Below, piece after piece: positions 52,518 to 62,514 of a DNA stretch of 64,000 nt. Both the position numbers and the translations under genes were made by a program. The notes under the pieces were generated by a model. The model was given only the letters and a program-made list of their open reading frames with translations, made no database searches and was not told the origin of the DNA. Position 1 is the stretch's first letter. Every line of letters starts with the position of its first letter. The DNA comes from Rubrivirga sp. SAORIC476 (GTDB lineage: Bacteria; Bacteroidota; Rhodothermia; Rhodothermales; Rubricoccaceae): contig NZ_MVOI01000015.1 of assembly GCF_002283555.1 (NCBI RefSeq), forward strand, positions 124,001 through 188,000, read 5' to 3'.

Positions 52518-53447
52518 ATGCCCGACGCCGTCCCCGCCCTCGACCCCGACCGCCCGACGCCCGAGGGATTCCGACCTGTCGGGCAGGGCATCCGGCGCCG
52601 CCTCTTCGAGATCGTCTTCCACGCCGACGACCCGGCGGCCAAGGGGTTCGACGTGGTCCTGATCGTCGCCATCCTGACGAGCGTCCTCGTGGTGATGCTG
52701 GAGAGCGTCGCCTCGATCCAGTCGCAGTACGCGAGGGAGCTGCTCGCCGCGGAGTGGTTCTTCACGGTCCTCTTCACGGCCGAGTACCTGCTTCGACTGT
52801 GGGTCCTCCAGACGCCCCTCCGCTACGCACGGAGCTTCTTCGGCGTCGTCGACCTGCTCTCGATCCTGCCCACGTACCTCAGCCTGCTCATCCCCGGGGC
52901 CCAGGTGCTGCTCACGGTCCGCATCCTGCGGGCGCTCCGCATCTTCCGCGTCCTCAAGCTGGCCAACTACCTCGACGAGGCCGACCAGCTCCGACGCGCG
53001 CTGGCCGCCAGCCGCCGCAAGATCCTGGTGTTCATCTTCGTCGTGCTGACGCTGGTCACCATCGCCGGGTCGATGATGTACCTGATCGAGGGCGGCGAGA
53101 ACGGCTTCGACTCGATCCCGCGGAGCGTCTACTGGGCGGTCATTACGGTCACGACGGTCGGCTACGGCGACATCGCCGCGCAGACGCCCGTCGGGCAGCT
53201 CCTGACGGTGGCGCTCGTGATCGTCGGCTACGGCATCATCGCGGTGCCCACGGGCATCGTGACGGTCGAGTTGGGCAAGGAGCGAGCGACATCGATGGCG
53301 GAGACGCTGGCCGGGGCTGCCGTCCAGGCGGTCACCGTCCAGCTCTCGACGTGCCCGCGCTGCGGCCTCAGCGAACACGACACGGACGCGAGCTACTGCA
53401 AGTGGTGCGGCGAGCCGCTCCTCGTGGAGGCCCGCCCGACGACCTGA
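52518..53447 (+). CDS. Voltage-gated-type potassium channel with C-terminal zinc ribbon
   Basis: 309 residues, six membrane helices. S4 carries regularly spaced Arg residues (VRILRALRIFRVLKL, 134-148). The selectivity filter is TVGYGD (213-218). After S6 a soluble tail holds CPRC...CKWC with Cys279, Cys282, Cys294 and Cys297, a zinc-ribbon layout. It is probably a potassium-selective channel, with the ribbon as an added regulatory or assembly module. It starts 8 bp after the glycosyltransferase stop. Confidence 0.93.
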   Translation: MPDAVPALDPDRPTPEGFRPVGQGIRRRLFEIVFHADDPAAKGFDVVLIVAILTSVLVVMLESVASIQSQYARELLAAEWFFTVLFTAEYLLRLWVLQTPLRYARSFFGVVDLLSILPTYLSLLIPGAQVLLTVRILRALRIFRVLKLANYLDEADQLRRALAASRRKILVFIFVVLTLVTIAGSMMYLIEGGENGFDSIPRSVYWAVITVTTVGYGDIAAQTPVGQLLTVALVIVGYGIIAVPTGIVTVELGKERATSMAETLAGAAVQAVTVQLSTCPRCGLSEHDTDASYCKWCGEPLLVEARPTT

Positions 53448-53957: not shown

Positions 53958-55382
53958 TCAGGGCACCAGCAACGCCAGCAGCCCCAGCGCGGAGAGCGGC
54001 CCGACGATGCCCGCGCGGAAGACGCGCCCCTCGAAGTCCGTCGTGTCGAGGTCGATCCGCTGTTTCCACCGCGCCAGGATGGCCGCCGAGGCGGCGGTCG
54101 CGAGCAGCGCGAGCGCCACGATGGCGAGCGTCAGCAGGATGGGCCGATCGGGGACCGGCGCCCCGCCCTCGGCCTCCCCCGCCACGCGGACCGCCCAAAC
54201 GCGGAGCCACACCACCAGCAGCACCGGCCCGACGCCCACCAGGGTCGCGCGCCACGCCGCGCGCCACGCGAGTTGCCCGACGCTCCACTCCGGCCGCGCG
54301 ACCCGCATCCGGTCGACCCCCAGAAAGGAGAACGTGACGGCCCAGGCGAGGGCGTACGGGAAGAGCAGTTCGAGGTCCAGCGCGCTCGACACCAGCAGCC
54401 ACAACACCCCCACCGACGACACGCTGAACACGTTGTGCGCCGTGTGCGGGCGCCGGCTGGGATCGTGCGGAAGGCCATCCGCTTCGCGAGCGGCGGGCCA
54501 CACGCGCGTGTAGAGGAGGTACACCAGCACCGGCGGCAGCAGCCACGCCGTCCCCCCCAGCGCCCATGCGAGGTAGCCGACCAGCACGGCCCCGAAGACC
54601 CCCGCGCCGCCGACCGTCGTCTCGCGCCGCATCGACGACGCGAGCAGGATCAGCAGCAGCATCACCACGGCGTGGCCCGCCAGCAGCGGCGCCGGGAACG
54701 TCAGCAGACGCATCAGGATGGCGACCGTGCCGAGCGGGAGGAACAGGTTGTCGAGCCCGCGCCACGACACCGCTTCCACGATGGTCGCCAGGGCCGCCGC
54801 GATGGCCGCGATCCAGAGCCCCTCTACCCGACCGACAGGCGTGAAGAGCACCAGGGGCACATGGACGCACAGAAACGCCAGCACCGCGAACGCCGCTGTG
54901 CCCTCACGGCTCTTCGGCCCCTCCACGGTCGAGTACGCAGTCTGCCCCATCCGCACGCCGACGAGCGCAGCCAGCGGCCCCGCGACGCCGAGCAGCAGCA
55001 GCGGGATCGTGTAGAGCACCGGCGAGTCGCCCACGAACAGGTACAGGCCACACACGGCGACCGGGAAGCAGAGGTCCCCCACCGACGGCTGGTCCGAGAC
55101 GTGGAGGACGCCCCCGAGCGCGTCGCGGACCGTCGGCACCATCCGGATCGCCAGCATCGTCCCCACGCCGAGCACGGCGAGCGCGATGACCGGCCAGTCG
55201 GCATCGAACAGCCACGGAAACGTGAGCGCGACCGCGCTCATGGACGCGTGCAGGATCTCGCGCGTCACCTCCGGCGCCAGCCGACGCACCACCTGGAGCC
55301 GACGCAGCGCGACCAGGGTCAGCACCAGCGTAACGAGCACGGCGACCACCGTCAGCCCGACCGGGAGCACCGACGCCGTCAC
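53958..55382 (-). CDS. CTP-dependent lipid kinase-like membrane protein (dolichol/phytol kinase fold)
   Basis: 474 residues with about 12 membrane helices, using the GTG at 55382; the start is uncertain. VRMGQTAYSTVEGPKSREGTAAFAV matches the loop of phytol kinase/dolichol kinase/CDP-diglyceride synthetase proteins (GPKSxEG signature), which use CTP to phosphorylate isoprenoid alcohols. The protein is roughly twice the length of phytol kinases, so a second membrane half of unknown role is present. It diverges from the amidohydrolase operon. Confidence 0.75.
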   Translation of the reverse strand: MTASVLPVGLTVVAVLVTLVLTLVALRRLQVVRRLAPEVTREILHASMSAVALTFPWLFDADWPVIALAVLGVGTMLAIRMVPTVRDALGGVLHVSDQPSVGDLCFPVAVCGLYLFVGDSPVLYTIPLLLLGVAGPLAALVGVRMGQTAYSTVEGPKSREGTAAFAVLAFLCVHVPLVLFTPVGRVEGLWIAAIAAALATIVEAVSWRGLDNLFLPLGTVAILMRLLTFPAPLLAGHAVVMLLLILLASSMRRETTVGGAGVFGAVLVGYLAWALGGTAWLLPPVLVYLLYTRVWPAAREADGLPHDPSRRPHTAHNVFSVSSVGVLWLLVSSALDLELLFPYALAWAVTFSFLGVDRMRVARPEWSVGQLAWRAAWRATLVGVGPVLLVVWLRVWAVRVAGEAEGGAPVPDRPILLTLAIVALALLATAASAAILARWKQRIDLDTTDFEGRVFRAGIVGPLSALGLLALLVP

Positions 55383-55546
55383 GCCATCGCTGGCCAGAGC
55401 CAGGACATCGACCGGAGGCCGACTGGGAGCATGGCTGGAGTCATGTGCGATCGATGGCGTCGCACAAGGTAGCCCGCTCCCCGACCGGGGAGGGCCCACG
55501 AACCCGTGCCGCCCGGCCGCGTAGGCCTCAGCCCCTCTCCGACACC

Positions 55547-56332
55547 ATGTCTGCCCCGTTCTCGATCACCGTCGGCCCTGGCGCCCTCGTCGCCACCGCC
55601 GTCCACGACGGCCACGCGATCCACCCGGAGACGCTCCCCCACGTCTCCCTGCCCGACGCCGAGCGGCTCCGCGAGGAAGACCCGTTCACGGGCCGACTGA
55701 CGGACGTCGCGCCGACGCGCGTCGTCGGCGGGCGCTCCCGCTTCGAGGTCGACCTGAACCGCCCCCGCGACCGCGCCGTCTACCGCACCCCCGACGACGC
55801 CTGGGGCCTGCAGGTGTGGATGGACACCGTCCCAGACGCCGTCGTCGCCCGCTCTCTGGCTCTCTACGACGCGTTCTACACCGCCCTGGGCGACCTGCTC
55901 CGGCTCAAGATCGAGGAGCACGGGTCGGTCGTCGTATACGACCTCCACACCTACAACCACCGCCGGGACGGCCCGGATGGCCCCGTAGCCAAGCCGGAGG
56001 GGAATCCCGAGGTCAACCTCGGCACGGGGACGCTCGACCGGGAGCGCTGGGGCGCCCTGGTGGACGGGTTCATGGCCGACCTCAGAGAGGGTGCCGCCCA
56101 GGCCGGCCTCCCCGACCTGGACGTACGCGAGAACGTCAAGTTCGAGGGGGGTCACGTGTCACAGTGGATCCACGAGACGTTCGGGAGCGATGCATGCGTG
56201 CTGGCGGTGGAGTTCAAAAAGACGTTCATGGACGAGTGGAGCGGGGAGCTCGACGAGGGCCACCTCGGGCAACTTCGCGAGGCCCTCGCCCACACCGTCC
56301 CCGGCGTGCTCGCCGCCCGGTCGGCGTCGTGA
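55547..56332 (+). CDS. N-formylglutamate amidohydrolase family protein
   Basis: 261 residues. A zinc amidohydrolase/carboxypeptidase-like fold: RFEVDLNRPRDRAVY, VVVYDLHTYNHRRDG and KFEGGHVSQWIHETFG supply the conserved acid and His residues. Family members release formate from N-formylglutamate in histidine breakdown, but no hut genes are nearby. Its stop overlaps the next gene's GTG (GTGA), forming a set with the QEGLA peptidase and the ATP-grasp ligase. Confidence 0.9.
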   Translation: MSAPFSITVGPGALVATAVHDGHAIHPETLPHVSLPDAERLREEDPFTGRLTDVAPTRVVGGRSRFEVDLNRPRDRAVYRTPDDAWGLQVWMDTVPDAVVARSLALYDAFYTALGDLLRLKIEEHGSVVVYDLHTYNHRRDGPDGPVAKPEGNPEVNLGTGTLDRERWGALVDGFMADLREGAAQAGLPDLDVRENVKFEGGHVSQWIHETFGSDACVLAVEFKKTFMDEWSGELDEGHLGQLREALAHTVPGVLAARSAS

Positions 56333-58200
56333 CGGCAGACGCCCTCCGGCGTGTGCTCCGTACCGGCTTGGACGCGGGGAGGCCCGTCCGCCTCGACCTG
56401 GGCGGCCTCGGGACCGTGTTCGTGGATCACGCCGTCCCGATCCTGGCCGTCCACCGGTGCCCCGGCGGTGCCACCGGCGACCCGGCCCTGGACGCCCGCG
56501 CGGCCTGCGACCAGGCTCATCAACTCGTCACGACCCAGCCCGCCTACGTCCTCACCTCTGACCCCGACCCCGGCGCTGCGCGCGAGACCGTCCGCATCGT
56601 CGCCGAGGCGCTGGAGGCTGCCTGTGGCGGGCTCCTGCTGGTCGAGGTCTGGTCGCCGCTCGACGATGCCCACGACGACGACGTCGACCCGTTCGACCGC
56701 GCGCCGGGGTTCACGATCTACACCTCCGAGGATGGCCCACCGGCCGAGGCGGTCGACGCGCTGTGCGACGCGCTGTCGGGGATCGAGGAAGCGGGTCAGG
56801 GAGCCAGCGTGGACCACGTGGTGACCCCGACCGTGGCACCGCCCGGCCTTCCGCCCCTGGACCGGCCCCATACCATCGGGCTCGCCGTCGACGCCATCTT
56901 CCACAACGCTCGCGACGACGAGTTCTACCCGCGTGTGCTGGCCCACCTGCGCGAGAGGATCGCGCCGGCGCTGCGCCAGGCTGCCGCCGACGCGACTCAG
57001 GTCTCCCCGACCATGCTGGCGCGCACGGCGCTGGAGCCTGCCGCCGTGGAGGTGGACCGGGGCCTCTCGGATGTCGCCCGCTCGTTCGGCTTCCTCCTCC
57101 AGGTGACGCCCGTCAACACCGACGCTGCCTGGGACGACTTCAAGGGGGGGGGCTGCGAGCACGCCCCGGAGCTGCTCTATCGTCCGCTCACGTTCGACCC
57201 CGACCAGGCCCGGCGCGACCTGTTCGCTCTGCCTCTCGACGACGTGGAGGACCCGGTCGTGGAAGGTCTGCTGCGCGAGTGCCGCGACGAGCTCGCGTCG
57301 CACGTCCGGATGGTGCTCGACATCGACACGCCCCAGTTCCTGCCCGAGAGCCTGCGCGTCTTCGGCGCCCCCGACGACGACCTGATCGACCTGGCGCACC
57401 GCGTCGTCTCGGCCGTCGACGCCCGGCCTCGACGCACGACGGGCCAGGAGACGGTCGGCGCGACCGTGTTCGCCGCTCAGGCGCGGGCTCAGTTGGAGGC
57501 CTACCATACGCTCTCCGAGCACGTCCCTGTCACTGTCGACATCCGCCAGGATCTGCCGAGCAGCCTGATGGTGTCGAGCGGCGAGCTGCTGATCGGCGCC
57601 CGGTACCAGGTCTCCGAGGCGCGCGTCGCCCCGCTGCTGGCGCACGAGATCGGCACGCACGTGCTGACGTACGCCAACGGCTGCGCCCAGTCGATCGAGC
57701 AGTTCCGCCATGGGCTGGCGGGGTACGAGGACCTTCAGGAGGGGCTGGCCGTCTTCGCCGAGTGGCTCGTGGGCGGCCTGACCGGCGGGCGGTTCCGGAC
57801 CCTGGCTGCGCGCGTGCTCGGTGCCCGCGCCGTGGCCGACGGGGCCGAGTTCGTGGACACGTACCGGCTGCTGAGACGTGACGCGGGCCTGAGCGAGCGC
57901 GGCGCGTTCGGCGTGGCCGTCCGGCTCCACCGCGGCGGCGGGCTGACCAAGGACATGGTGTACCTGCGCGGCCTGCGCGACCTGCTCCGCCACCTCGCCG
58001 AGGGCGGCCCGTTCCGGGCGCTGTTCGCGGGCAAGATGGCCCTCCGCCACCTCGACGCCGTCGCCGACCTGACCGACCGGGGCATCCTGCGCCCCCCACG
58101 ACTTCTTCCCCTTCACCTCGACGACCCCTCTGCGGTCGCCCGCCTCGGCCGTGCCCGCGACGGACTGACGGTCACCGACCTCCTCTCCCCAGACGCGTAG
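56329..58200 (+). CDS. QEGLA-motif (DUF1704/TIGR02421) metallopeptidase, MATCAP-like
   Basis: 623 residues with a GTG start. The metallopeptidase motif is His439-Glu440-x3-His444 (HEIGTH), followed by the family name motif QEGLA at 470-474, supplying a further Glu. TIGR02421 proteins are annotated as flavohemoglobin expression modulators; the same DUF1704 domain forms the eukaryotic MATCAP tubulin carboxypeptidases. A likely function is carboxypeptidase trimming of a peptide or protein tail. Coupled to the upstream amidohydrolase; the ligase follows after 29 bp. Confidence 0.9.
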   Translation: MTADALRRVLRTGLDAGRPVRLDLGGLGTVFVDHAVPILAVHRCPGGATGDPALDARAACDQAHQLVTTQPAYVLTSDPDPGAARETVRIVAEALEAACGGLLLVEVWSPLDDAHDDDVDPFDRAPGFTIYTSEDGPPAEAVDALCDALSGIEEAGQGASVDHVVTPTVAPPGLPPLDRPHTIGLAVDAIFHNARDDEFYPRVLAHLRERIAPALRQAAADATQVSPTMLARTALEPAAVEVDRGLSDVARSFGFLLQVTPVNTDAAWDDFKGGGCEHAPELLYRPLTFDPDQARRDLFALPLDDVEDPVVEGLLRECRDELASHVRMVLDIDTPQFLPESLRVFGAPDDDLIDLAHRVVSAVDARPRRTTGQETVGATVFAAQARAQLEAYHTLSEHVPVTVDIRQDLPSSLMVSSGELLIGARYQVSEARVAPLLAHEIGTHVLTYANGCAQSIEQFRHGLAGYEDLQEGLAVFAEWLVGGLTGGRFRTLAARVLGARAVADGAEFVDTYRLLRRDAGLSERGAFGVAVRLHRGGGLTKDMVYLRGLRDLLRHLAEGGPFRALFAGKMALRHLDAVADLTDRGILRPPRLLPLHLDDPSAVARLGRARDGLTVTDLLSPDA

Positions 58201-58229
58201 GACCTCCTCGCGGCCCCCTCCCCACGCCC

Positions 58230-59270
58230 ATGCGCATCGCCTTCCTGATCAACTCCTACGACACGGAGAAAGCCGTCTACACCACGACGCGCCTCGCACT
58301 CGCCGCCCACAAGGCCGGCCACGACGTGCTCTATCTATCGGTCGAGGACTTCATCTGTGACCCCGACGAGACCATGCGCGTTCGCGTGCGGCGACCCGGC
58401 GGGACTTATAAGACCACCAAGACCTTCTGGGCAGGCGTCCACGACGACGGCGTCGAGGAGCGGATGGCGGTCGAGGAGATCGACGCGCTCCTGCTCCGCA
58501 ACGACCCTGCCGACGACGCCTCCGCCCGCCCGTGGGCCCAGTCGGCCGGCATCGTGTTCGGGCAGATGCTCGCTCGCCGGGGCGTGATCGTGCTCAACGA
58601 CCCCGACGGGCTGGCGAAGGCCGTCAACAAGGTCTACTTCCAGCGCTTCCCGCAGGAGGTGCGGCCCAAGACGCTCGTCACCCGTCACGCCGACGACGTG
58701 CGGCGGTTCATCGACGACCACGGCGGGGACGCCGTCATCAAGCCGTTCCAGGGCTCGGGCGGCGAGGGCGTGTTCGTGGTCCGGGGCGACGACAAGGCGA
58801 ACCTCAACCAGATCATCGATGCGGTCTGCACGAGCGGCTACATGGTGGTCCAGGAGTTCCTCGCCGAGGCGGCCGGGGCCGACACCCGGATGTACCTCGT
58901 CAACGGCGAGCCCCTCGTGCAGGACGGCGTTTATGCGGCGTTCCGCCGCGAAGGTCAGGGCGACGACGTGCGGAGCAACATCAGCGCGGGCGGCCAGGTC
59001 GCGAAGGCGGAGATCGGGGAGCGCGAACTCGAGATCGCCGAGATGGTCCGTCCCCAGTTGGTCCAGGACGGCATGTTCCTGGTCGGCCTCGACATCGCGG
59101 GCGGCATCTTGCTCGAAGTGAACGTGTTCAGCCCCGGCGGCATCGGCGGCATCGAGAAGACGACCGGCGTGGACTTCGCACCGGCCATCATCGAGGCCAT
59201 CGACCGCAAGGTGCGGGCCAAGGGGCGCTACACCCAGCACTTCTCGAACGTCACGCTGGCGACCCTGTAG
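58230..59270 (+). CDS. ATP-grasp ligase, glutathione synthetase-like
   Basis: 346 residues. The ATP-grasp core is shown by VIKPFQGSGGEGVFVV (glycine-rich loop), MVVQEFLAEAAGADTRMYLVNGEP and LVGLDIAGGILLEVNVFSPGG (metal-binding Glu/Asn). The N-terminal MRIAFLINSYDTEKAVYTT matches GshB-type proteins. It probably forms a peptide bond with an amino acid at a carboxyl group. No gshA is adjacent, and the operon partners suggest a substrate other than glutathione. A perfect hairpin terminator follows. Confidence 0.92.
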   Translation: MRIAFLINSYDTEKAVYTTTRLALAAHKAGHDVLYLSVEDFICDPDETMRVRVRRPGGTYKTTKTFWAGVHDDGVEERMAVEEIDALLLRNDPADDASARPWAQSAGIVFGQMLARRGVIVLNDPDGLAKAVNKVYFQRFPQEVRPKTLVTRHADDVRRFIDDHGGDAVIKPFQGSGGEGVFVVRGDDKANLNQIIDAVCTSGYMVVQEFLAEAAGADTRMYLVNGEPLVQDGVYAAFRREGQGDDVRSNISAGGQVAKAEIGERELEIAEMVRPQLVQDGMFLVGLDIAGGILLEVNVFSPGGIGGIEKTTGVDFAPAIIEAIDRKVRAKGRYTQHFSNVTLATL

Positions 59271-59291
59271 ACGCGCCGCGCCCGAACGGCA

Positions 59292-59334
59292 GCAGGCCCA
59301 CCCCGGACACGGATCGGAGTGGGCCTGCCTTGAA
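59292..59334 (+). terminator. Terminator after the ATP-grasp gene
   Basis: A perfect 10-bp stem (GCAGGCCCAC / GTGGGCCTGC) with a 17-nt loop and a short CTTGAA tail. It closes the three-gene operon. Confidence 0.65.
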
Positions 59335-59459
59335 TCGGAGTTCGCCGTTGGCGAGAGACTCCCAGCCACGGCCGGAGCCGTTGCACAAGGGTAGGCATGG
59401 CCGCCGCCGCCTCCATGACCCCCGACGGCCATTCTGCTAGTGCGCCAGGACTACCGGCC

Positions 59460-59850: not shown

Positions 59851-61089
59851 ATGAGCACGCATCTTTCCTCCGGCGATGGCGCCGGTAGCGCTTCCGACAG
59901 CACCGTCGACATCCTCGACGCCGTCACCACTGAAGCCGCCATGCCCGGCTCGGGCCTGCCGGACCTCACCACCGCCCCCGACGCCGTCGCCCCTGGCGAC
60001 GACTTCCTCCCTCTCAAGGGCACCGACTACGTCGAGTTCTGGGTCGGCAACGCCCGCCAGGCGGCCCACTACTACGCCCATGCGTTCGGCTTTGACGTGA
60101 TCGCCTATCTGGGACCCGAGACGGGCCACCGCGACCGGATGAGCTACCTCGTCACCCAGGGGAAGGTCCGCTTCGTCCTGACCTCGCCCATGGGCCCCGA
60201 GGGCGAGATCGCGGACCACGTCCGCCTCCACGGCGACGGCGTGCGCGACCTCGCGCTCTGGGTCGACGATGCGGTGTCGGCCTTCGAGGAGACGACCAAG
60301 CGTGGCGGCGTGCCCGTCCGCGAGCCCGAGGTACTGGAGGACGAGCACGGCACCGTCACCGTCTCTGCCATCGGCACCTACGGCGACACCATCCACACGT
60401 TCGTGGACCGCTCTGCCTACGACGGCCCCTTCCTGCCCGGCTACGAGGCCATCCAGGACGACTACTTCACGCCCAACCCGGTCGGCCTCAAGTACGTCGA
60501 CCACTGCGTCGGCAACGTGGACCTGGGCGACATGAACAGGTACGTCCAGTACTACGCGGACGTAATGGGCTTCAAAAACCTCATCTCGTTCGACGACCAG
60601 GACATCTCCACCGAGTACACGGCGCTGATGTCGAAGGTGATGTCGAACGGCAACGAGCGGGTCAAATTCCCGATCAACGAGCCCGCCGAGGGCAAGAAGA
60701 AGAGCCAGATCGAGGAGTACCTCGACTTCTACCGCGGCCCCGGCGTGCAGCACATCGCGCTCGCCACCGACAACATCCTGGAGACGGTTTCCAAGCTCCG
60801 CAGCCGCGGCGTCGACTTCCTGACCGTCCCGACGACCTACTACGACGAGCTGACCGAGCGCGTCGGCGAGATCGACGAGGACCTGTCGGAGCTCGCCGAG
60901 TTGGGCATCCTGGTCGACCGCGATCCGGACGGCTACCTGCTGCAGATCTTTACCAAGCCCATCGGCAACCGCCCGACGGTGTTCTTCGAGATCATCCAGC
61001 GCAAGGGGGCCCGCTCGTTCGGCAAGGGCAACTTCAAGGCGCTCTTCGAGGCCATCGAGCGCGAGCAGGAGCGCCGAGGAAACCTCTAA
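59851..61089 (+). CDS. hppD: 4-hydroxyphenylpyruvate dioxygenase
   Basis: 412 residues. Converts 4-hydroxyphenylpyruvate to homogentisate with iron(II) and oxygen, in tyrosine breakdown. Iron ligands are the His in KYVDHCVGN, the His in GVQHIALAT and the Glu in VFFEIIQRKG. The first 50 residues form an acidic extension. hmgA, the next pathway step, follows after 144 bp in the same direction, with a hairpin between. Confidence 0.97.
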   Translation: MSTHLSSGDGAGSASDSTVDILDAVTTEAAMPGSGLPDLTTAPDAVAPGDDFLPLKGTDYVEFWVGNARQAAHYYAHAFGFDVIAYLGPETGHRDRMSYLVTQGKVRFVLTSPMGPEGEIADHVRLHGDGVRDLALWVDDAVSAFEETTKRGGVPVREPEVLEDEHGTVTVSAIGTYGDTIHTFVDRSAYDGPFLPGYEAIQDDYFTPNPVGLKYVDHCVGNVDLGDMNRYVQYYADVMGFKNLISFDDQDISTEYTALMSKVMSNGNERVKFPINEPAEGKKKSQIEEYLDFYRGPGVQHIALATDNILETVSKLRSRGVDFLTVPTTYYDELTERVGEIDEDLSELAELGILVDRDPDGYLLQIFTKPIGNRPTVFFEIIQRKGARSFGKGNFKALFEAIEREQERRGNL

Positions 61090-61233
61090 GGTTCGGGGTT
61101 GAGGGGTTCAGGGTTCAAGTGCTCTGACCTCTCGCCCGGCGACCTGGACTCCGCTCGGCGGGGCTGTGCCGCGGTGTCTCGCATCGCTCCTCCCGTTCGC
61201 CCTTGCGAACCCTGAACCACGAACTCTGAACCC
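61090..61233. repeat. Long intergenic hairpin between hppD and hmgA
   Basis: GGGGTTCAGGGTTCAAG near the left end is complementary to GCGAACCCTGAACCACG near the right end, around a 90-nt centre. The GGGTTCAG word recurs in both arms. It spans the whole gap between the two co-directional genes. Confidence 0.7.
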
Positions 61234-62514
61234 ATGTCTTTTTACGTCCAGCGCGGGCAGATCCCGCCGAAGCGTCACACCCAGTTCCAGCGCCCCGACG
61301 GCGCCCTGTACACCGAGGAAGTCCTCGGCGAGGAGGGCTTCCACGGGATCGGCAGCATCGCCTACCACATCCACCCACCGACGCTGGTCGAAGCGGTCGG
61401 CGAGCCGGAGGACGTGACGGTAGAGTACGCCGAGGAGGCGTTTCTGGCGCACCGCCACTTTCTGGGACCGAAGGTCGAGCCCGGCGGCGACTGGCTGACC
61501 GGCCGCGTGCCCATCATGGGCAACAACGACATCGTGATGTCGATGTGCGTGCCGACGGACGGCATGCCCGAGGACACGTTCTACAAGAACGCGACCCACG
61601 ACGAGCTGATCTACGTCCACGACGGCGAGGGCACGCTCCACACCGTCTTGGGCGACGTCGAGTTTCGGCAGGGCGACTACGTCCACGTGCCGCGGACACT
61701 GATCCACCGGTGGTCCTTCACCGGCGACGTCCAGCCGCGCCTGCTGGTGATGGAGTCGCCCACCGAGTTCCGCCCGCCGAAGCGGTACCGCAACGACATG
61801 GGCCAGCTGCTGGAGCACAGCCCGTACTGCGAGCGCGACTTCCGGCCGCCCGGCGACCCGCCGGCGATCGACCAGGAGGGCCGGTTCACGGTCAAGATTA
61901 AAAAGCACGGCAAGCTCTTCCCATTCGTGTACCGCTACCACCCGTTCGACGTCGTCGGGTGGGACGGCTACATGTACCCGACGGCCTTCTCGATCCACGA
62001 CTTTGAGCCCATCACGGGGCGCATCCACCAGCCGCCGCCGGTCCACCAGACCTTCGAGGCGCGCGGGTTCGTGGTGTGCTCCTTCGTGCCCCGCCTGTTC
62101 GACTACCACCCGGACTCGATCCCGGCGCCGTACAACCACTCGAACATCGACTCGGACGAGGTGCTGTACTACGCCGAGGGCGACTTCATGTCGCGCAAGG
62201 GCATCGGCCGGGGCAGCTTCACGCTCCACCCCGGTGGCATCCCGCACGGCCCGCACCCCGGCACCACCGAGGCGAGCATCGGCGCCAGAGAGACGCACGA
62301 GCTGGCGGTCATGGTGGACACCTTCGCGCCGCTCAAGCTGACCAAGCAGGCGCTCGCCATCGAGTCGCCGGACTACGTGCTGTCCTGGCAACCCGAGAAG
62401 CACGGTCACCCGCTCCCGGACGCGGCCCCCATCCCGCCGGGCGCGACGATCTCGGGCGACGGCGCCGCGGGGGCGCTCCCCGACTCGCCGCCCCTCGACG
62501 CCGCGCGCGGCTGA
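61234..62514 (+). CDS. hmgA: Homogentisate 1,2-dioxygenase
   Basis: 426 residues. Opens the homogentisate ring to maleylacetoacetate using iron(II). The active-site region holds EVLYYAEGDFMSRKG and HPGGIPHGPHPG, with ligands in HG-rich segments, and RYHPFDVVGWDGYMYPTAF is conserved. Downstream maleylacetoacetate isomerase and fumarylacetoacetase genes are not in this window. A perfect 12-bp terminator stem follows. Confidence 0.96.
   Translation: MSFYVQRGQIPPKRHTQFQRPDGALYTEEVLGEEGFHGIGSIAYHIHPPTLVEAVGEPEDVTVEYAEEAFLAHRHFLGPKVEPGGDWLTGRVPIMGNNDIVMSMCVPTDGMPEDTFYKNATHDELIYVHDGEGTLHTVLGDVEFRQGDYVHVPRTLIHRWSFTGDVQPRLLVMESPTEFRPPKRYRNDMGQLLEHSPYCERDFRPPGDPPAIDQEGRFTVKIKKHGKLFPFVYRYHPFDVVGWDGYMYPTAFSIHDFEPITGRIHQPPPVHQTFEARGFVVCSFVPRLFDYHPDSIPAPYNHSNIDSDEVLYYAEGDFMSRKGIGRGSFTLHPGGIPHGPHPGTTEASIGARETHELAVMVDTFAPLKLTKQALAIESPDYVLSWQPEKHGHPLPDAAPIPPGATISGDGAAGALPDSPPLDAARG

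Follow-up and report, generated by a model that had tools for sequence, protein, structure and literature searches.

Three adjacent genes on the plus strand of a 64,000-nucleotide stretch of DNA from Rubrivirga sp. SAORIC476 (positions 124,001 to 188,000 of contig NZ_MVOI01000015.1, hereafter the window) form a cassette that is conserved in many phyla. The first gene encodes an N-formylglutamate amidohydrolase-like zinc enzyme (FG, 55547-56332, ATG start, 261 amino acids), the second a two-domain MATCAP/QEGLA protein (QEG, 56329-58200, GTG start, 623 amino acids) and the third a GshB/RimK-class ATP-grasp ligase of the PRK12458 subfamily (AG, 58230-59270, 346 amino acids). These genes are grouped far more often than expected by chance. 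The trio is tentatively proposed to make and unmake an amide bond on a shared substrate and to be used when cells adapt to low osmolarity or to changed ion levels. Its members are labelled as glutathione genes, but together they look instead like a salt-related modification system not described before. The stop codon of FG overlaps the start codon of QEG by 4 nucleotides and a gap of 29 nucleotides separates QEG from AG, in agreement with an earlier note on this DNA, made from the sequence alone, in which the three genes are described as overlapping or nearly abutting. The closest relative among the matches listed is a Rubrivirga metagenome-assembled genome, with 74% identity.

Co-occurrence and arrangement of the three genes

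The GTDB loci analyzed are the best 80 of at least 568 confirmed candidates, selected for the resemblance of their QEG to that of the window and hence biased to the long form of this protein. Of these QEG loci, which represent many phyla, 78 contain AG, 71 contain FG and 69 contain both, and in 61 both are located within 300 bp of QEG. Of 81 consecutive pairs of QEG and AG on the plus strand, 80 are spaced by no more than 50 nucleotides. More than one AG match is detected in 10 of the 80 loci; the matches of L040 and L074 look like one split gene each. Two evenly drawn genome samples comprise 198 genomes of the phylum of the window (Bacteroidota) and 299 genomes of Pseudomonadota. The AG subfamily is present in 19 of these 497 genomes and adjoins QEG in 18 of them, the 19th being located at a contig end. 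In the phylum of the window, the AG model NF009110 gives 11 genomes with scores of at least 396 bits and a next score of 215 bits, and all 11 genomes carry QEG and AG at the same locus. TIGR02421, the QEGLA model, matches 13 of the 198 genomes, one very weakly, and the 12 good loci, that of the window included, contain AG in 11 cases and FG nearby in 10. The exceptions are G053, which lacks FG, and G186, which lacks both FG and AG. In Pseudomonadota, AG is above the cut-off in 8 genomes, with a score gap from 461 to 241 bits, and lies beside QEG in 7 of them, while the eighth gene starts 48 bases from a contig end. The trio is also present on pSymB of Sinorhizobium meliloti, a species used as a laboratory model.

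The Pseudomonadota sample yields 34 TIGR02421 matches in 29 genomes, of which 9 have AG alongside and 21 belong to a stand-alone subfamily; of the remaining four, one is a short fragment and three are QEG-like but lack AG. Proteins of the stand-alone subfamily have the same catalytic domain and motif as QEG, but they have low scores with the trio-QEG profile and lack its N-terminal domain, and neither FG nor AG is present within the flank examined. Their genes (L182-L194, L196-L199, L201 and L207-L209) score highly with TIGR02421. Most TIGR02421 members of this sample, named flavohemoglobin expression-modulating QEGLA motif proteins, are short, stand-alone and without FG, AG or MscS neighbours, unlike QEG. 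Because 21 of the 34 matches stand alone, co-occurrence is a property of one subfamily, that with a long or fused QEG, and not of TIGR02421 overall. Wide co-occurrence of the three families in other genomes, on which the earlier note had made its idea depend, therefore holds for this subfamily, with FG and AG accompanying QEG in 69 of the 80 GTDB loci, and does not hold for the 21 Pseudomonadota genes that have neither partner. A general rule that QEGLA proteins go with ATP-grasp proteins is ruled out by the stand-alone subfamily, which does not follow it.

The cassette occurs in two main arrangements. Type A, to which the window belongs, has the order FG, long QEG (approximately 610-640 amino acids) and AG2, and type B has the order AG1, FG and short QEG. 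L020, L022 and L100 combine them: a single FG is present, AG1 lies upstream of it and AG2 follows QEG. In type B, FG and QEG are fused into one protein in L019, L195, two Photobacterium records and Vibrio sp. HDW18. The fusion is found in Vibrionaceae and in one Bacteroidota genome, and in L019, L195 and the two Photobacterium records it adjoins AG. It is direct evidence that FG and QEG are functionally linked. The fused gene of Vibrio sp. HDW18 (L226) is located right after maoP. Two or three AG genes are present in L036, L042, L045, L053 and L088, and L045, L053 and L088 also contain two QEG genes, as if a QEG-AG unit had been duplicated.

Domains of FG, QEG and AG

FG matches PF05013 (FGase) with 70.1 bits (cut-off, 28.9). 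The candidate active-site residues H20, E43, E44, D45, D132, H134 and E222 are intact, and the candidate metal residues H20 and H134 are invariant across 65 aligned relatives. A search of the PDB with the sequence profile gives nothing at 1e-3, whereas a Foldseek search with the AlphaFold2 model of FG (pLDDT 96.5) gives N-formylglutamate amidohydrolase 2q7s as the best PDB match (E 3.4e-13). FG matches no NCBIfam model and hence no equivalog. Enzymes of this type cleave N-acyl glutamate amides.

QEG matches the MATCAP family PF08014 with 284.8 bits (cut-off, 27) and TIGR02421 with 318.6-320.4 bits, just below the cut-off of 338.65. Its C-terminal domain (approximately residues 236-623, 57034-58197) is predicted to be a MATCAP-like carboxypeptidase. 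The HExxxH metal motif, HEIGTH, is located at residues 439-444 (57643-57660) and the QEGLA motif at residues 470-474 (57736-57750), exactly where the earlier note had placed them. When 73 long QEG proteins are aligned, H439, E440, G442, H444, Q470, E471 and G472 do not vary, and E471 is aligned with the EEGLA glutamate of human MATCAP (7z5g). The relation to MATCAP that the earlier note had proposed is supported both by sequence, since the QEG family matches 7z5g by hmmsearch with E 4e-16, and by fold, since residues 256-622 of the AlphaFold2 model (pLDDT 93.8) are superposed by VIA-align 2 on 7z6s/7z5g with Z 23.7 and a root mean square deviation of 3.4 over approximately 293 residues. VIA-align 2 ranks MATCAP first, followed by DUF885 and M32 carboxypeptidases, while MATCAP is not among the top 50 Foldseek matches of the full-length model. 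TMCP/MATCAP enzymes, which share the HExxxH metal motif with QEG, are described as HExxxH carboxypeptidases in PMC10499314.

The N-terminal domain of QEG (approximately residues 1-235, 56329-57033) matches no Pfam family. It is aligned with the FG family by hhalign with 96.6% (E 5.5e-10) in local mode and 97.5% (E 3e-11) in global mode, as compared with 0.1, 0.1 and 12.2% for three control profiles. Residues 25-226 are superposed on 2q7s by VIA-align 2 with Z 13.7 and a root mean square deviation of 4.3 over 186 residues, M14 carboxypeptidases being ranked lower. His134 of FG is present in 77 of 77 FG sequences and in none of 89 QEG N-terminal domains, 65 of which have Trp at this position. 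Arg140, Lys225 and Glu230 (FG numbering) are also mostly lost, whereas Asp69 is kept and Glu222 is kept in 44 of the 89; this comparison covers FG from beyond its first part, as that part, including His20, could not be mapped. The N-terminal domain is most simply interpreted as a degenerate, probably non-catalytic copy of FG.

AG matches NF009110 (PRK12458 subfamily) with 420.7 bits (cut-off, 408), PF02955 (prokaryotic glutathione synthetase) with 162 bits and PF08443 (RimK) with 76.6 bits, and its best PDB match is E. coli GshB, 1gsa. Against PHROGs, AG gives a weak RimK-like match, and FG and QEG give none. ATP-grasp ligases form an acyl phosphate, which is then attacked by an amine. The earlier note had drawn a parallel between AG and tubulin tyrosine ligase (TTL). 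Within the ATP-grasp superfamily, AG belongs with GshB and RimK, and its Pfam matches at E 0.001 or below are limited to GSH-S_ATP, RimK, GSH-S_N and YheCD, with no TTL profile among them. Membership of AG in the TTL family is rejected for lack of a profile match, and the parallel is an analogy of logic only. A tree of ATP-grasp proteins (37 rows, that of L016 being in a wrong frame) was used only loosely.

Neighbouring genes, low-salt expression and function

MscS is the commonest Pfam family among the 241 open reading frames nearest to the cassettes (6 of 117 in a first set and 3 of 124 in a second). It is followed by CorA and amino-acid permease, each of which occurs 4 times in the first set, and by SDF, BrkB and MgtE (3 each). 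In 50 trio genomes, the MscS family PF00924 gives 264 matches in approximately 250 Mb; the flank around the 50 cassettes amounts to 587 kb. Fifteen MscS genes are located near the cassettes, in 14 of the 50 loci, as compared with 0.66 expected from the genome-wide density, so that MscS is enriched approximately 20-fold. The Poisson probability of this excess is approximately 1e-14, a value that ignores shared ancestry and the fact that the pattern had been seen first. The 14 loci belong to Planctomycetota, Calditrichota, Poribacteria, Acidobacteriota, Gemmatimonadota, Kiritimatiellae, Magnetococcales, Polyangiaceae and Bacteroidota. None of the 21 stand-alone QEGLA loci has MscS beside it (Fisher P 0.007 as compared with the trio loci). 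CorA gives 75 matches in the same 50 genomes, 4 of them in the flanks of the cassettes, where 0.18 are expected.

In an RNA-seq comparison of Photobacterium damselae at 1% and 3% NaCl, two genes are up-regulated at low salt: A0J47_RS17020 (Glutathione synthase GshB) by 38.42-fold and A0J47_RS17025 (Flavohemoglobin expression-modulating QEGLA motif protein) by 27.51-fold; the authors of the study treat the former as glutathione synthetase (PMC10308900). These two genes very probably represent the trio operon, because their tags are neighbouring and two other Photobacterium records carry exactly such a pair, AG1 overlapping a fused FG-QEG gene.

The trio may act as follows. AG would activate a carboxyl group with ATP and join an amino acid to the activated group, by the chemistry of GshB and RimK. 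The MATCAP-like domain of QEG would take residues off a C-terminus, and amides of the N-acyl or gamma-glutamyl type would be the target of FG. The inactive FG-like domain at the N-terminus of QEG is likely to recognize end groups of this kind as well, and to anchor QEG either to FG or to the substrate. The substrate may be a small peptide or a protein tail, shared by these presumably opposing activities. The cassette may serve to adapt the cell to a low osmolarity or to changes in ion levels, which would explain its location beside genes for mechanosensitive channels and for magnesium or ion transport, and its induction in Photobacterium when salt is low.

Several observations weigh against this proposal. 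FG is not seen in 9 of the 80 GTDB loci, 3 of which have less than 250 bases of upstream sequence, and AG is not seen in 2. L200, L203 and the fragment L210 in Pseudomonadota are QEG-like without AG, and the fusion of Vibrio sp. HDW18 has no AG within 6 kb. MscS is absent from the flank examined in 36 of the 50 loci, the loci for the neighbour counts had been selected because their QEG resembles that of the window, and the osmotic theme was spotted only after all neighbour families had been viewed. As to expression, 1,808 genes changed in the P. damselae experiment (PMC10308900), and a joint rise of ligase and peptidase at low salt does not itself show that they oppose each other.

If the substrate is a protein tail, one host protein may be extended at its C-terminus by AG and trimmed again by QEG, in the way that RimK and RimB act on ribosomal protein S6 and TTL and MATCAP on tubulin. 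The MATCAP fold and HExxxH motif of QEG are consistent with such a code, as are the RimK match of AG and its C-terminal SPGxxGIEKTTG stretch, which resembles E. coli RimK. Pairs of ATP-grasp protein and protease with osmotic phenotypes are also known, as described for the Rlo operon (PMC12239564). However, no candidate target protein is encoded within the operon, and AG scores higher with GshB (205 bits) than with two RimK models (95 and 72 bits). This alternative is possible, but on the whole unlikely. A bolder version of the proposal, in which little confidence is placed, regards the trio as a prokaryotic counterpart of the tubulin tyrosination cycle. According to it, AG would write a C-terminal residue, QEG guided by its pseudo-domain would erase it and FG would edit the other end, so as to set the low-osmolarity response through or alongside MscS, and the eukaryotic tubulin eraser would descend from such an enzyme.

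Alternatively, AG may build a small charged or neutral peptide that serves as a solute or counter-ion, like N-acetylglutaminylglutamine amide (NAGGN), and FG and QEG may degrade it when salt falls. The ion and osmotic neighbour genes are consistent with this possibility, and no small carrier or precursor gene recurs beside the trio among open reading frames of at least 70 amino acids. Induction at low salt (PMC10308900) falls at a time when an osmolyte would need to be removed, but it is AG itself that is most induced there (38-fold), which is the opposite of what is expected for an osmolyte synthase. AG also gives only 17.9 bits with the NAGGN synthetase model TIGR03103 (cut-off, 569). A peptide osmolyte is a doubtful explanation.

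It is very improbable that the trio belongs to glutathione metabolism, with AG serving as a glutathione synthetase whose partner gshA lies far away, and with QEG and FG recycling glutathione or gamma-glutamyl peptides. AG is annotated as glutathione synthetase, is aligned over its full length with E. coli GshB and keeps the R, R, N and E-N residues of the catalytic region, but its scores are below the cut-offs of both GshB equivalogs (205.1 against 272 bits for NF003573 and 190.6 against 299.05 bits for TIGR01380). When 26 trio-carrying genomes are searched with NF003573, 15 contain a match above the cut-off. Eight of these are proteobacterial and have, in addition to AG (approximately 196-219 bits), a distinct, canonical GshB (443-474 bits). 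Such a separate enzyme is thus present in 8 of the 10 proteobacterial carriers examined, G205 and G234 having AG only. The ordinary glutathione synthetase that the earlier note had allowed for is accordingly not what these scores and genomes indicate. In the other seven, all of the Bacteroidota phylum, it is AG1, located upstream in the cassette itself, that gives the match (278-294 bits). AG1 passes the GshB cut-off and AG does not; AG1 is therefore nearer to GshB than AG, and this is the strongest remaining point for a glutathione-like substrate. In the genome of the window, AG is the sole strong GSH-S_ATP match, and one GCS2 protein passes NF010043, named glutamate-cysteine ligase, with 457.5 bits (cut-off, 409). 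This protein also passes TIGR02050 of the YbdK family, and the genome encodes BshC of bacillithiol synthesis. A glutathione operon is rejected as the primary interpretation in view of the AG scores, the separate GshB, the nearly exclusive occurrence of AG beside QEG, BshC and the YbdK match. AG passes the cut-off of the PRK12458/NF009110 subfamily, but the members of this subfamily follow QEG and not glutathione synthesis, and its name, glutathione synthetase, is probably wrong.

A catabolic cluster, with FG acting like HutG in the degradation of histidine and with QEG and AG as bystanders, can practically be dismissed despite the PF05013 membership and HutG-like fold of FG: the three genes remain associated in different phyla, fusions of FG and QEG occur in several genomes, no hut genes are found among the recurrent neighbours and FG is without an NCBIfam match.

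Downstream of AG, the window contains a strong hairpin that lacks a T-run (59292-59328; -30.5 kcal/mol by RNAfold for 59276-59335) and may represent the end of the transcription unit. Scans for a consensus sigma-70 promoter and a T-run terminator at the trio find nothing. An ion-channel gene (52518-53447; Ion_trans 123.6 bits, Ion_trans_2 51.8 bits) is located 2.1 kb upstream on the same strand, outside the proposed operon; its product is probably a potassium channel with a zinc-ribbon-like C-terminal tail. The gene at 53958-55499 on the minus strand, divergent from the trio, encodes a 512-amino-acid multi-membrane protein that matches neither Pfam nor NCBIfam, and by eye its middle part is like phosphatidate cytidylyltransferase or polyprenol kinase. 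The trio is followed on the same strand (59851-62514) by hydroxyphenylpyruvate-dioxygenase-like and homogentisate-dioxygenase-like genes of tyrosine degradation, the latter being just below one of the two Pfam HgmA cut-offs (HgmA_C, 20.6 against 21 bits). A co-encoded carrier, or a precursor of a ribosomally synthesized and post-translationally modified peptide, was dropped as a candidate, because clustering of the neighbours reveals no recurrent small gene in the size range given above.

Comparison with known systems

The degenerate FG domain in QEG, the FG-QEG fusions and the enrichment of MscS near the cassette are new. No earlier description of the trio was found in the literature searched, outside which lay the survey of ATP-grasp amidoligases by Iyer et al. 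(2009). The current labels, glutathione synthetase, N-formylglutamate amidohydrolase and flavohemoglobin-modulating protein, lead transcriptome papers to read the genes as glutathione or nitrogen metabolism, and one salinity study explicitly made the glutathione reading (PMC10308900). When the genes are seen as one system, they represent a testable module for osmotic or ion adaptation in many phyla, Sinorhizobium meliloti included. The MATCAP family, the eukaryotic members of which are tubulin tyrosine erasers, also gains a bacterial context with a ligase partner.

The trio may be filed among the cassettes of ATP-grasp ligase and peptidase. Like the tubulin tyrosination cycle, in which the ATP-grasp ligase TTL is paired with the MATCAP/TMCP peptidase, the trio combines an ATP-grasp ligase with a MATCAP-family peptidase. 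It differs from this cycle in that AG is of the GshB/RimK class, the bacteria add FG as a third enzyme and a pseudo-FG domain, and the substrate is not tubulin. The NAGGN osmoprotectant trio, which includes an ATP-grasp synthase and a peptidase, has a similar three-gene logic in osmotic adaptation, but its peptidase families differ from those of FG and QEG, and no match to NAGGN synthetase is found in the trio. The RimK-RimB and Rlo (RloA-RloB-RloC) systems likewise consist of an ATP-grasp ligase and a partner peptidase. The peptidases of these systems are retropepsin-like aspartic enzymes, whereas those of the trio are a gluzincin carboxypeptidase (PF08014) and an M14-like amidohydrolase (PF05013). 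According to PMC12239564, the ATP-grasp protein and secreted peptidases of the Pseudomonas Rlo operon are needed in hypo-osmotic medium, Rlo mutants are sensitive to low osmolarity, and a peptidase mutant is rescued by loss of the ATP-grasp gene. The Rlo operon is a precedent for the logic of the trio, not a relative of it.

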